Positions 16,269 through 37,663 of a stretch of DNA of 42,490 nt are shown here, in pieces. The notes beneath the pieces were generated by a model. The model had not been told where the DNA came from. It was given only the letters and a program-made list of their open reading frames with translations, and did not search any database. Position numbers and translations under genes: made by a program. Numbering within the stretch: position 1 is the first letter of the stretch; each line of letters starts with the position of its first letter. Origin of the DNA: Rhodospirillales bacterium RIFCSPLOWO2_02_FULL_58_16 (lineage in GTDB: Bacteria; Pseudomonadota; Alphaproteobacteria; Rhodospirillales; 2-02-FULL-58-16); contig MIAA01000001.1 in the NCBI GenBank assembly GCA_001830425.1, positions 1 to 42,490 of the forward strand, in the 5' to 3' direction.

Positions 16269-16934
16269 ATGAACTTCGGCAGGTTGCGTCGTTTGCTTTT
16301 CCTGGGAACGCTGACATTTTCCCTGCTTGCCGCAGAGCGGGCGGGGGCCGAGGAAACGCGCCCCAGCTTCTTCAACAGCACGGAGACCATCTCGACGAAT
16401 CTGAAACCATTTAACAAATGGACCGACGCCGTAGCGCGCTTTTCCAAAGAACAGGCGGAAAAGATAAAAGGCGACTGCAAATCCACCAAGCTCAACAAGT
16501 GCCATTACAAGGAATGGATGGAGTTTCTCGAAAGCCTCAAGGACAAGGACGAAATGACCCGCGTCAACGAAGTCAACCGGGTTATGAACAAGGCCGCCTA
16601 CATCATCGACAAAGCCAACTGGGGGGTGGAGGACTACTGGGCGACGCCCAACGAGTTTCTGGAGCGTTTCGGCGACTGCGAGGACTACGCCATCGCCAAG
16701 TACATATCGCTGAAACATCTGGGGTTCAAGGCGGAGCAAATGCGCGTGGTGGCGGTCAAGGACCTGAACCTGAAAGTCGGCCACGCCGTCCTTGTCGTTT
16801 ACCTTAACTCAAGGATTTATCTTCTTGATAATCAAATAAAACAGGTGGTGGAGGCAAACAGCGTCTACCACTACTCGCCGGTCTATTCGATCAACGAAAA
16901 CAACTGGTGGCGTCATAACCCCTTAACGAAGTGA
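16269..16934 (+). CDS. LapG-like bacterial transglutaminase-like cysteine peptidase (C93/BTLCP)
   Basis: 221 residues with an N-terminal signal peptide (hydrophobic about 8-22, then AERAGA), so probably periplasmic. The catalytic triad of the family is visible: Cys137 in RFGDCEDYA, His172 in VGHAVL and Asp187 in LLDNQ. LapG of this family cleaves large surface adhesins at the cell envelope and is controlled by the c-di-GMP receptor LapD. No lapD or adhesin gene is in the window, so the substrate is unknown. AGGGT lies nine bases before the ATG. The last 179 bp, from residue 163 on and including His and Asp but not Cys, occur again at 18110-18288 with one mismatch. Confidence 0.88.
   Translation: MNFGRLRRLLFLGTLTFSLLAAERAGAEETRPSFFNSTETISTNLKPFNKWTDAVARFSKEQAEKIKGDCKSTKLNKCHYKEWMEFLESLKDKDEMTRVNEVNRVMNKAAYIIDKANWGVEDYWATPNEFLERFGDCEDYAIAKYISLKHLGFKAEQMRVVAVKDLNLKVGHAVLVVYLNSRIYLLDNQIKQVVEANSVYHYSPVYSINENNWWRHNPLTK
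16756..16934. repeat. 179-bp direct repeat, copy 1 (3' end of the LapG-like gene)
   Basis: Matches 18110-18288 at an offset of 1,354 bp with one difference (T at 16916, C at 18270). It ends exactly at the stop codon of the LapG-like gene. The DNA between the copies is less GC-rich and unlike its surroundings. Confidence 0.95.
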
Positions 16935-17033
16935 AATTGCAAAACCTTCCCCCGGATTTTTGAGATATTTTTCTATCCTCAAAGGCAATAATTAGAATAT
17001 GCTCTCGAAATATTTGTATTAAAGGAGATGAAA

Positions 17034-18109: not shown

Positions 18110-18288
18110 TCAAGGACCTGAACCTGAAAGTCGGCCACGCCGTCCTTGTCGTTTACCTTAACTCAAGGATTTATCTTCTTGATAATCAAATAAAACAGGT
18201 GGTGGAGGCAAACAGCGTCTACCACTACTCGCCGGTCTATTCGATCAACGAAAACAACTGGTGGCGTCACAACCCCTTAACGAAGTGA
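18110..18288 (+). pseudogene. Duplicated 3' fragment of the LapG-like gene (copy 2)
   Basis: Encodes the same C-terminal 59 residues and stop as 16756-16934, without the catalytic Cys or signal peptide. A frame joining it to the insert opens at 18016, but this would be a 90-residue chimera with no secretion signal, so it is not expected to be active. The last codons of ampG (from the opposite side) lie within this copy, which suggests it marks the original junction of the LapG-like gene with ampG. Confidence 0.85.
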
Positions 18289-19607
18289 GCTTGAGCGGTC
18301 GGTCGCCGCCGTCCCAGCCACCACAGCACCAGCAGTCCCGGAACGGCGAGGGCGGCGCTGAAAATGAAAAAGCCGAACCAGCCCATCGTCTCCGCCGCCC
18401 ATCCCGACGACGACGACAGCATGTCGCGGGCGAAGGCCATCAGGGAACTCAACAAGGCATACTGGGTGGCGGTGTAGGCCTTGGTGCACAGCGAGGACAA
18501 ATAGGCGACAAAGGCGGTGGTGGCCATGCCGGCGGTGACGTTTTCAGCGGTAATGGTCGCCATCAGCATCAAAACGTCGTGGCCGACCACGGCCTGAACG
18601 CAAAACATCAGGATGCCGGCGATCTGTAGAATTCCACATATCATCAGGCTTGGCATAATGCCGTAGCGGCTGACCGCGATGCCGCCGATCAGGGCGCCGA
18701 CCAGCGTGGCCCCCAGGCCGAAAACTTTGCTGACGGCGGCGATTTCGGTCATCGAAAATCCCATCTCCACATAGAAGGGATTGGCCATCACCCCTTGGTA
18801 GGCCTCGCCCAGCTTGTAAAGCATGATGAACAAAAGAATGGCGACCCAGCCGGGACGCCGCATAAAATCGTTGAACGGCGCGATAACGGCTTCGTAAAGC
18901 CAGGCCAGCCCCCGCGCCGACCACAGGGGAAGCCCGGCGGCCAGATGGTCGGCGATGCGCTTTTCCTCGTTATCGGCCAAAGTCAGGGAAACATCCGGCC
19001 GAGGCTCCCCGGCGCATAGAACGGTGATCATGCCGACTGCGCCCAGCGCCGCCATGACCATATAAACCTGGGGCCACGTCAAAACCGAGGCCAGCCACAA
19101 GGCCCCGGCCCCGGCGCTCAACATGCCGACCCGGTAACCGAGAACGATGGTCCCGGCGCCCGCGCCTTGTTGGTCTTCGTCCAGGGATTCCACCCGATAG
19201 GCGTCGATTACAATGTCCTGACTGGCCGAGCAAAACGCCACCAAAAGGGCGAACAAGGCGGTGGCCGCAGGATTGACGCCGGGGCCGGTCATGGACATGG
19301 CGAAGATCGCCGCCATCAGCGCCGCCTGGGTAACCAGCGCCCATCCGCGCCGACGTCCCAGCATCTTACTCAACACCGGCAACGGCAAGCGGTCGATCAA
19401 CGGCGCCCACAGGAACTTGAGGGCGTAGGGGGTGCGGACCAGGGAAAACAGCCCGATGGCGGTCAGCGACACGCCCTCCACCTTGAGCCACACCGACATG
19501 GTGGAAAAAACCAGCAACAGGGGCAGGCCGCTGGAGAACCCAAGGAAAAAAATGACGACAACCCGGCGATCAAAATAGACCCTGGCGGCGTCATGCCAGC
19601 TTTTCAT
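18267..19607 (-). CDS. ampG: Muropeptide permease AmpG (MFS)
   Basis: 446 residues, 12-14 predicted TM helices, inner membrane. AmpG imports anhydromuropeptides for peptidoglycan recycling and in many bacteria feeds the AmpR/AmpC induction signal. Family features include FSSGLPLLLVFSTMSVWLK near the N terminus, the LKFLWAPLIDR segment between helices 2 and 3, and SQDIVIDAYRVE in helix 5 region. Its start overlaps the stop of the upstream GT9 gene by four bases, which points to one operon of two glycosyltransferases and ampG. Its last six codons (HFVKGL) fall within the duplicated 179-bp sequence. Confidence 0.9.
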   Translation of the reverse strand: MKSWHDAARVYFDRRVVVIFFLGFSSGLPLLLVFSTMSVWLKVEGVSLTAIGLFSLVRTPYALKFLWAPLIDRLPLPVLSKMLGRRRGWALVTQAALMAAIFAMSMTGPGVNPAATALFALLVAFCSASQDIVIDAYRVESLDEDQQGAGAGTIVLGYRVGMLSAGAGALWLASVLTWPQVYMVMAALGAVGMITVLCAGEPRPDVSLTLADNEEKRIADHLAAGLPLWSARGLAWLYEAVIAPFNDFMRRPGWVAILLFIMLYKLGEAYQGVMANPFYVEMGFSMTEIAAVSKVFGLGATLVGALIGGIAVSRYGIMPSLMICGILQIAGILMFCVQAVVGHDVLMLMATITAENVTAGMATTAFVAYLSSLCTKAYTATQYALLSSLMAFARDMLSSSSGWAAETMGWFGFFIFSAALAVPGLLVLWWLGRRRPTAQAHFVKGL

Positions 19608-21959: not shown

Positions 21960-22025
21960 GGGTCAAGTACTAGAGCATTTAAAGATTGATTGGAACACTC
22001 AAGACCGTTGTGGGCCATGCCTTAT

Positions 22026-22142
22026 CGTCTTTGCGAGGATTGCGAGAAGCGGAGCGACGAAGCAAGACGAAGCAATCCAGAGAGCGCCACCGGCCACTGG
22101 ATTGCTTCCCGTGTCGCTGACGCTCTCACGGTCGCAATGACG
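22026..22142. repeat. CGTCATTGCGAG / AGCAATCCAG hairpin repeat, copy 1
   Basis: AGCAATCCAG (22071-22080) and CTGGATTGCT (22097-22106) pair exactly, and outer arms CGTCTTTGCGAG and TCGCAATGACG extend the fold. It fills most of the gap between aroC and the GT9 gene. The same family recurs at 27185-27296 and, as one arm, at 12218. Confidence 0.85.
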
Positions 22143-27184: not shown

Positions 27185-27296
27185 CGTCATTGCGACCGCG
27201 CCCCGAGCGTAGCGAAGGGGGCAGCGACGCGGGAAGCAATCCAGATGGCGGTTTTGCTGACTGGATTGCTTCGTCGCTCCGCTCCTCGCAAAGACG
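27185..27296. repeat. CGTCATTGCGAG / AGCAATCCAG hairpin repeat, copy 2
   Basis: AGCAATCCAG (27235-27244) and CTGGATTGCT (27261-27270) pair exactly; outer arms CGTCATTGCGA and CTCGCAAAGACG match those of copy 1. It lies upstream of the transporter gene. Confidence 0.85.
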
Positions 27297-27342
27297 GTGA
27301 GGCTCGGCCCGGCGCGGACTTGACGGCGGCCAAAATAACTTG

Positions 27343-28202: not shown

Positions 28203-29138
28203 ATGAGCGCGAAGACCGGAGTAATGATCTGCGGTCATGGAAGCCGCGATAAACAGGCCGTCAATGAATTCAATGAGTTTGCCGGAATCCTGCGCCGGCG
28301 ACTGTCGGGCCGGGAGATAGAAAGCGGTTTTCTCCAGTACTCGCTCCCCACCATCAGACATGGCCTGGAGACACTGAAAGCGCGCGGCGCCGAACATATC
28401 ATTTGCCTGCCGTGTATGTTGTTTTCCGCCGGGCATGTGAAAAATGACATTCCTTCCGCAATCAACGCCTTCACCGATGCCGCCCCCGGCGTTCGGGTGA
28501 TGACGGCCCGCGAGTTGGGCGTTGACGCCAAATTGCTGACGCTGGCGGCGAAACGCATCGCCGAGGCGGAGGATGCCTCATCATCCGCCGGGGCCGCCCG
28601 CAAGGACAGTCTGCTCCTGGTGGTGGGGCGCGGGAGCAGCGATTCCGGCGCCAACTCCGATATCTCAAAAATCACGCGCATGTTGTGGGAAGGAATGGGC
28701 TTCGGCTGGGCCGAAACGGCGTTCAGCGGCGTCAGCGCCCCCGGCGTCGGCGAGGCGCTGGACCGTGCGGCGATGTCGGGCTACAGGCAGGTCGTCGCGC
28801 TGCCCTATTTCCTGTTCACCGGCGTCCGGGTCAAGGGGGTGCAGGCCGAGGTCAAGCAAGCGGCGTCACGATGGCCGAACATCAAAATGCTGACGGCCGG
28901 TCACCTGGGGCCGCACCCGCTACTGGTGGAATGCTTTGTCGAACGCCTGGAGGAAATGATTTCAGGCGTTGCCGACATGAACTGCCGGGACTGCGCCGCC
29001 AGAAAGCGGGCGTTATTACCGGCGGTCGTAAAAAATGACTCTGAAAATTCTCCCCCTTGCTTCAAGGGGGAGTTAGAGAGGGTCGTTGCAACAACCTCCC
29101 CTGACCCCTCCTTGGTAAGGAGGGGAAAGAATGATTAA
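28203..29138 (+). CDS. cbiX: CbiX-type sirohydrochlorin chelatase with a repeat-encoded tail
   Basis: Class II chelatase with two homologous halves that inserts Co2+ (cobalamin route) or Fe2+ (siroheme) into sirohydrochlorin. Metal-site His12 (ICGHGSRD) and His78 (LFSAGHVKND) are seen in the N half; the C half has VVGRGSSD in place of the first His. MNCRDC (259-264) resembles the terminal Cys motif seen in some CbiX proteins. The family-like part ends at Pro273. The last 38 residues, from AVVKND on, are encoded by an inserted hairpin repeat. Without it the frame would read ALLP then TGA at 29159-29161. No other cobalamin genes are nearby, so the metal is undecided. Confidence 0.88.
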   Translation: MSAKTGVMICGHGSRDKQAVNEFNEFAGILRRRLSGREIESGFLQYSLPTIRHGLETLKARGAEHIICLPCMLFSAGHVKNDIPSAINAFTDAAPGVRVMTARELGVDAKLLTLAAKRIAEAEDASSSAGAARKDSLLLVVGRGSSDSGANSDISKITRMLWEGMGFGWAETAFSGVSAPGVGEALDRAAMSGYRQVVALPYFLFTGVRVKGVQAEVKQAASRWPNIKMLTAGHLGPHPLLVECFVERLEEMISGVADMNCRDCAARKRALLPAVVKNDSENSPPCFKGELERVVATTSPDPSLVRRGKND

Positions 29139-29158
29139 GGCCGCGGGCGTTATTACCG
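29006..29158. repeat. Two-hairpin repeat element (copy A) flanked by a 16-bp direct repeat
   Basis: GCGGGCGTTATTACCG occurs at 29006-29021 and again at 29143-29158. Between them, from about 29037 to 29130, lie two hairpins: CTCCCCCTTG/CAAGGGGGAG with a 3-base loop and CCCCTCCTT/AAGGAGGGG with a 3-base loop. The element begins GACTCTGAAAA. Related outer arms occur at 30617-30812 and 37369-37623. The flanking duplication looks like a target-site duplication. Confidence 0.8.
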
Positions 29159-30151
29159 TGATTTGGCGACGGCGGCTTCTCCGGCCAGACAGACGGCGAC
29201 ATCCACCCGCGTCTTCAGGTCGGCGATATGGGCTTCGAGTTCCTTTCCTTGCAGCAAGGCGCCGTCCTTGGTCTTGGCGGTCCCGTCCCGGGATAAAATG
29301 TCTTTCATCAAAACAAGTTGCTGTTCCCACTTGGCGATGTAGGGCGCCCAGTCTCCGGCATGTCTTTGATTGACGTATTCAACCATGTTTTTGTGGGTCA
29401 GCGTCCCCCACCACGATACCTTGGGGATAGCCCCGCAACTTGTGTTCTTTACCCAATCCACAGATGAAGCGCGGCCCGGCGAATCGGGCTTGGCCGGGAT
29501 GTACGACCTGGATTGCGGGGCGTCCGGCGGCGCGGGAGAATCCTTGAAGTATTTTCCATAGCCGATGCCGGCAAAAAGCAAAAGCGCGGCTACGGCGGCA
29601 ATCTTGCCTGTCTGCCGGGACAGCAGTCTGTTTTTCAAAGAACTGCGGTCGTTTTTCCCGGCTCTGCGGCATCCGCCCTCCACGGCCCTGCGACCGTTAC
29701 CCTCGGCCTTGCGGGGAGCATCTGCGCCCCTGCGGCGACTGTCGGCACTACCATTAACGGTCGAGGCGGGCAAGTGAGCAAGCAGACTCTTCACCTTTGC
29801 CGCGATGATCGGCAAATTGAAGGGCTTGGTGACGTAATCTACCGCGCCCAGTTCAAAGCCCCGGGTTTGGTCATGGCCGTCATCTTCGGCGGCGATAAAA
29901 ATTACCGGAATGCTTTTGGTCTGCGGGTCATTTTTCAGCTTGCCGCAAACCGCAAAACCGTCCATTCCCGGCATCGCAACGTCCAACAGGATCAAGTCGG
30001 GTTTGTTGGCCTTGGCGATCATCATGGCGTCCTCGCCGCTGGTGGCCAAGGTTACGCTTGCCTCCTCGCGCAATAAACTGCCGAGGGTCTGGATGATCCT
30101 CGTATCGTCATCGACGATAAGAACCTTACGCATCGGGAGTCGCGCCAACAT
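29153..30151 (-). CDS. Receiver domain fused through a TM helix to an extracytoplasmic domain
   Basis: 332 residues from the first ATG; an ATG six codons later (MRKVLIVDDD) may be the real start. Residues 8-125 are a complete response-regulator receiver with acidic residues 14-16, phosphoacceptor Asp57 (LLDVAMPGMDG) and Lys109 (VTKPF). A basic Arg/Gly/Ala-rich linker (about 130-180) leads to one TM helix (184-202). After a Pro-rich stretch comes a C-terminal domain (about 235-325) with WWGTLTHKNMVEYVNQRH and GDWAPYIAKWEQQL. Its two cysteines, 239 and 321, could form a disulfide. I do not recognise the domain by name. The gene stands alone, convergent with cbiX. Confidence 0.8.
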   Translation of the reverse strand: MLARLPMRKVLIVDDDTRIIQTLGSLLREEASVTLATSGEDAMMIAKANKPDLILLDVAMPGMDGFAVCGKLKNDPQTKSIPVIFIAAEDDGHDQTRGFELGAVDYVTKPFNLPIIAAKVKSLLAHLPASTVNGSADSRRRGADAPRKAEGNGRRAVEGGCRRAGKNDRSSLKNRLLSRQTGKIAAVAALLLFAGIGYGKYFKDSPAPPDAPQSRSYIPAKPDSPGRASSVDWVKNTSCGAIPKVSWWGTLTHKNMVEYVNQRHAGDWAPYIAKWEQQLVLMKDILSRDGTAKTKDGALLQGKELEAHIADLKTRVDVAVCLAGEAAVAKSR

Positions 30152-30616
30152 TTTTAAACCATATCCTCAAAAAGTTGTTTTATGTTCGAGTATGGCAATA
30201 TCAACCGATTCGGATGACCTTAGCCTAAACACTTCCCGGAGCCTGTGATGGCCGTCACACCCTCCTTTACGCCGGTGGCGATCCCTCGGCAAGGAAAAGG
30301 CGCGCAAGAACATATCATGACCATTAATTATACACATAAATTATATGGTCTTTAGGCGTATTTTATACAAAAGCCAGTTGTCAGGCCGTTGTCAGGAAGG
30401 GCGACCGTATTTTTATAATCCTGATATAATTTATAATTGGTATAACTAGGCGCGTTCATATTGTCAGTAGGATTTTTTTCTGCTACCGGAAACAGCGGCT
30501 CCCGCAGCAACGACGAGGCTCCGCCGCGAAGCAATTGCTTACAGCCGATGATTGATTGTTCTTTGACGGTATTGAAGGATTTATTGTGGGTTATAATGCC
30601 GGTGGCCGTAAAGAGT
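30152..30616. other. AT-rich gene-free stretch
   Basis: No gene is firmly supported. The tract 30320-30450 is very AT-rich (ATTAATTATACACATAAATT and similar). A 35-codon frame at 30248-30355 has GGAG six bases before its ATG, but its product (MAVTPSFTPVAIPRQGKG...) has no recognisable feature. Confidence 0.5.
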
Positions 30617-30812
30617 GACTCTGAAAAATCCTCCCCTTCTTACAAAGAGGGAATTATCAGTCTGTGTGCTTTGAACACAGAGGCGCAGAGGCGCAGAGAA
30701 GATCAAGCGAAGTTTTCTTCCTGCTTTTTATTTATCTTCTCTATCCTCCTCTGTGTCTCTGAGCCTCTGTGTTTCATAAAACAGTATCGGCTCCTTGGCA
30801 AGGAGGGGAAAG
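30617..30812. repeat. Composite repeat, copy B
   Basis: Outer parts match copy A: GACTCTGAAAAATCCTCCCC on the left and CTCCTTGGCAAGGAGGGGAAA on the right. Inserted between them is a module (about 30662-30784) starting CTGTGTGCTTTGAACACAGA, with tandem GGCGCAGA units, and ending CCTCTGTGTTTCATAAAACA. The module has long imperfect inverted ends (GAACACAGAGGC and GCCTCTGTGTTTC). Copy C carries the same module in the opposite orientation. Confidence 0.85.
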
Positions 30813-30867
30813 CGCGAAAGGCCGCATCCTTTCCCAAACGCCCGGAAATTTGTGCTATTGCTGCGTC

Positions 30868-37301: not shown

Positions 37302-37368
37302 TTCGCCCATCCTTCTTTATCAACAAATATGATGGTAATATCATCGGCCTTAATCATTTGCTCCCGTG

Positions 37369-37623
37369 TTTTCCCCTCCTTACCAAGGAGGGGGCAGGGG
37401 GAGGTTGCCGCCGATATCCCCTAACGCCCGGCGCGTTGACCGGAATAAGCGCTATTTTATGAAACACAGAGGCTCAGAGACACAGAGGAGAATAGAAAAA
37501 AAGAAAAAGTAGGAGAAAAAACTTCGCTTAATCTTCTCTGCGCCTCTGTGCCTCTGCGCCTCTGTGTTCAAAGCACACAGGCTGACAACTCCCCCTTCTA
37601 AAGGGGGAGGATTTTTCAGAGTC
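37369..37623. repeat. Composite repeat, copy C (inverted relative to B)
   Basis: Read on the minus strand it begins GACTCTGAAAAATCCTCCCC, a CTTT/AAAG hairpin, the same AACACAGAGGCGCAGAGGC module (about 37456-37582), an extra 50-odd bp including CGCGCCGGGCGTTAGGGG, and ends CCCTCCTTGGTAAGGAGGGG. It fills the 362 bp upstream of bioF, and no gene is seen there. Confidence 0.85.
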
Positions 37624-37663
37624 GTTCGTTAAGGCCATTTAGTATAATACGACTCGCGATGAT

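Follow-up and report, generated by a model that had tools for sequence, protein, structure and literature searches.

The cbiX locus and the exact 16-bp repeat

In the window, by which we mean the whole stretch of 42,490 nt that was analysed, the gene for the predicted cobalt chelatase CbiX converges with a response-regulator gene, and where the two meet lies a two-hairpin stretch flanked by an exact 16-bp direct repeat, GCGGGCGTTATTACCG. The positions of these features are listed in Table 1. The two copies of the repeat are spaced 137 bp apart and constitute the longest exact direct repeat in the window at spacings of up to 400 bp; the number of exact 16-mers expected from base composition at spacings of 17-400 bp is about 0.004 for the whole window. 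Across the genome, allowing 0 or 1 mismatch, the 16-mer has no further occurrence. The hairpins are reflected in the predicted folding of positions 29000-29170 as RNA (z -4.2, with none of 200 shuffles equally stable) and in a DNA fold (z -3.5).

Table 1. Features at the cbiX end and related element copies in the window.
Feature	Position	Strand	Basis
cbiX (311 aa now, 273 aa without the element)	28203..29138	+	ORF; Pfam CbiX PF01903, E 3.1e-51
16-bp repeat GCGGGCGTTATTACCG, left copy	29006..29021	+	Exact match to right copy
TTA, likely left copy of target duplication (3-bp TNA)	29013..29015	+	Place relative to left tip; family rule
Putative mobile element as bounded here, 134 bp, short family variant	29016..29149	+	Alignment to 15 further copies
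Left terminal inverted repeat (T)TACCGGCGGTCGTAA	29016..29031	+	Family consensus TRCCRNYGGYCGTAA
38 added codons, AVVKNDSENSPPCFKGELERVVATTSPDPSLVRRGKND	29022..29135	+	ORF; absent from orthologues; no Pfam match
Hairpin 1, CTCCCCCTTGCTTCAAGGGGGAG	29050..29072	+	Sequence, fold, alignment with family copies
Hairpin 2, CCCCTCCTTGGTAAGGAGGGG	29105..29125	+	Sequence, fold, alignment with family copies
Element-supplied stop codon TAA	29136..29138	+	ORF reading
Right terminal inverted repeat GGCCGCGGGCG	29139..29149	+	Compare GGCCGCCGGCA in copy L034, GGTCGATGGCG in copy L033
16-bp repeat, right copy	29143..29158	+	Exact match to left copy
TTA, likely right copy of target duplication	29150..29152	+	Family rule; alignment of copies
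Convergent response-regulator gene	29153..30151	-	ORF; Pfam Response_reg E 1.5e-26
Inferred original cbiX stop TGA	29159..29161	+	Flanks joined; orthologue length
Further element copy, split by second repeat; worn on the right, end position approximate	30597..30824	+	
Further element copy, split by same second repeat, TAA/TAA flanks on plus strand	37339..37644	-	

When the flanks are joined at the 16-mer they read AAG CGG GCG TTA TTA CCG TGA, encoding KRALLP followed by a stop, and the TAA stop of the convergent gene, which falls inside the right-hand 16-mer, is retained. An earlier note on this DNA had described the exact repeat around a two-hairpin element, the restoration of ALLP-TGA upon joining and the preservation of the convergent stop in the right-hand copy, and all of these are confirmed here. 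It had also proposed looking for a shorter CbiX in relatives, and the closest orthologue, which is 61% identical and has the same upstream gene, does lack the 38-residue tail with its peptide VVATTSPDPSLVR. That orthologue has 8 residues after the MNCRDC motif as against 9 in the joined form, and its C-terminal end, MNCRDCDAHEQIIS, is near the joined form's MNCRDCAARKRALLP; its contig ends at the stop codon, such that the comparison covers the gene and not the empty site. Elsewhere in the order the CbiX tail is mostly longer, often His-rich, and unlike the 38-residue tail. A second CbiX-like gene, 53% identical, is present in the same genome (G000:C1:119650-120447). Homologues of the convergent protein have their C-terminus near the same residue as here; these homologues are present in other genomes but not beside cbiX, and in no other genome were the two genes seen as neighbours.

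A dispersed family of short elements and its target duplication

The hairpin stretch is one member of a family dispersed through this genome, a draft of 53 contigs. Searches returned 45 matches with the inner part as query and 56 with the full-length consensus, these being match counts that include pieces of copies interrupted by a second repeat; the elements themselves number roughly 40. The consensus runs from TRCCRNYGGCCGTAAAGAATGACTC through hairpin 1 and hairpin 2 to a right end of ...GATTAAGGCCGATGGTA, with imperfect terminal inverted repeats, TRCCRNYGG, at both ends, and unsplit copies are 126-183 bp long, too short for a transposase. No family members were found in 59 relatives at E 0.001, nor any relatives on plasmids, and in a survey of the phylum beyond this genome only 2 of 397 genomes gave matches, each over only 33-40 bases around hairpin 2.

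The family is modular: in five copies (L049, L053, L056, L059 and L060) these hairpins are combined with another left half, either TACCAGCGGCTTTAAAGAGTGACTCATCGTCAG... or ...GGCCATTGACGATAACTCG. Other repeats are also found in the window. The second repeat, likewise dispersed and bearing inverted ends (CACAGAGGCGCAGAGG...), is nested in two of the other element copies, at 30651-30784 and 37452-37597; a third repeat family (GCGACGAAGCAATCCAG...) is represented at 21999-22119 and 27222-27323 in inverted orientation, with similar sequence also beside element copies elsewhere in the genome (L052 and L057); and at 16756-16939 and 18110-18293, 1354 bp apart, a 184-bp sequence is directly repeated with 98% identity. 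At L035:1494-1560, too, the end of an ORF runs through a copy of the element in the same frame (...IIPVAVKNDSKKSSPFLRGS). A crude ORF survey found a few element copies that end ORFs, and a preference for doing so was not seen.

In 24 copies both ends could be placed, by visual comparison with the family consensus, and the flanks of these follow a simple rule: an exact 3-bp duplication is present in 14 of the 24, none has a duplication longer than 3 bp, and the flanking trinucleotide is TNA on the left in 23 and on the right in 21. The initial survey in which this rule appeared had itself selected for TNA, which the 24-copy survey did not, though its list was compiled with the rule in mind. Six copies have TNA on either side but with differing middle bases, which would fit recombination between copies. 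The 16-mer apart, the longest flanking repeat at any of the family's core places examined measures 9 bp.

The window copy can be read against this rule, though its 16-bp identity obscures the register. Its right tip, GGCCGCGGGCG, needs no gaps to align with that of copy L034, GGCCGCCGGCA, and is directly followed by TTA. On the left side TTAT is followed by TACCGGCGG; the tip reads TTACCG as compared with the family's TACCG, and because one extra T stands between TTA and the tip the register is not clean at this junction. Within the 16-mers, TACCG of the left copy stands at the element's left-tip position and GCGGGCG of the right copy at its right-tip position; put another way, each outer flank is identical to the tip at the far end of the element, over 7 and 5-6 bases. 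The repeat described in the earlier note therefore comprises tip positions together with the likely TTA duplication, and the borders given there for the element fall short of its likely ends by 6-7 bp. The accompanying proposal that the 16 bp are a target duplication does not find support, since sister copies duplicate 3 bp of TNA form and none exceeds 3 bp.

Probable insertion at the cbiX end and the origin of the 16-bp identity

That the hairpin stretch arrived by insertion is well supported by comparison of sequences, although the empty site itself is unseen in relatives, and the dispersed copies and the tail-less closest orthologue uphold the earlier view that an inserted element would have added 38 residues to CbiX. 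Its classification as a MITE-like element that inserted in the TNA manner is very probably correct. The element, which carries two hairpins between imperfect terminal inverted repeats (TRCCRNYGG...), would have inserted at a TTA where the ends of cbiX and the response-regulator gene converge, presumably duplicating this TTA, as the 3-bp duplications observed in sister copies suggest. One frame through the element is open, and CbiX is therefore predicted to have gained the 38-residue tail and a new stop. The 16-mer would then consist of the TTA plus bases on each side at tip positions that equal the host flanks. Alternatively, the stretch could belong natively to the cbiX end, as a terminator or a conserved RNA, with no insertion at all, and stable hairpins between convergent genes are what might be expected of one; but there are dozens of dispersed copies, the 38-residue tail is absent from orthologues, the hairpins have no T-run terminator and the stretch has no Rfam match, and we give this explanation almost no credence.

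It is less straightforward to account for the identity between tips and flanks. We favour, tentatively and at somewhat under even odds, a later homogenisation of the tips with the flanks, for instance through repair against an empty-site chromosome or strand slippage between look-alike junctions; this is the weakest step of the proposed sequence of events. The additional T of the left tip is consistent with copying from the right flank without being proof of it. The view of the earlier note, a genuine 16-bp target duplication by an element that lacks the outermost 5-7 bases and used an unusual insertion route, agrees with the exactness of the repeat and with the natural ends that both genes acquire when the flanks are joined, but it needs the host to have had by chance both TACCG at the left-tip place and a near match to GNYGGYR-TNA at the right-tip place, and with other copies never above 3 bp we regard it as unlikely. 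Slightly less probable still is an ordinary duplication of 3 or 4 bp (TTA or TTAT) in a site whose 7 left-flank and 5-6 right-flank bases happened to match the tips. The junction anatomy would then obey the family rule, and a TTAT duplication would also remove the extra left T; against this, simple counting places such a coincidence at about 4^-12 to 4^-13 per copy, and other target sites are unlike the tips, their mean flank-to-tip identity of 1.9/7 and 1.6/6 lying near the permuted values of 1.7 and 1.5. The ranking of later homogenisation above a true 16-bp duplication, and of that above chance, is a matter of judgement with guessed priors.

Two further origins for the 16-mer were considered and dismissed. 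A target preference for tip-like sites is not seen in the 24 copies, and a tandem or circle-junction origin (right tip, TTA, left tip), which the 16-mer's resemblance to such a junction had suggested, was discounted on the grounds that joining the flanks gives each gene a natural length. It is also very improbable that the family has a second mode of insertion with long (16-bp) duplications, or that rewriting of its tips to match look-alike flanks is a regular occurrence. The family is MITE-like and non-autonomous and the insertion event is of an ordinary kind; the 16-bp repeat is a peculiarity of this single site rather than a novel type of insertion.

Relationship to known elements and significance

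Bacterial MITEs are short, lack a transposase, have inverted-repeat ends, a short target duplication, many copies and internal hairpins, and form ORF fusions (PMC10969869); the element described here shares these attributes, its duplication being 3 bp. It differs in the 16-bp repeat flanking the window copy, and in that an autonomous partner was not found, no gene of the four Pfam families searched (DDE_Tnp_1, DUF4096, DDE_Tnp_1_2 and DDE_Tnp_4) being detected in the draft genome. The 3-bp TNA target duplication is shared with the IS1031 subgroup of the IS5 family (PMC12016507), but the terminal repeats differ, GAACCTGTCTAGTATCT against TACCAGYGGCC in the one subgroup example compared. MITE-protein fusions are already known, especially in Rickettsia, whose palindromic elements are likewise palindromic repeats of about 150 bp that add peptide to host proteins (PMC10969869); the addition in the window differs in forming the very C-terminal end of the protein, where the element itself provides the stop.

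The 16-bp identity serves mainly as a caution, in that a long flanking repeat may mislead as to the target duplication when the tips match the flanks. The copies define a family with a clear TNA target rule, found so far only in this genome, and the window copy, as read from its sequence, provides a clear example of a MITE-like element altering the C-terminus of a metabolic enzyme, the cobalt chelatase CbiX.
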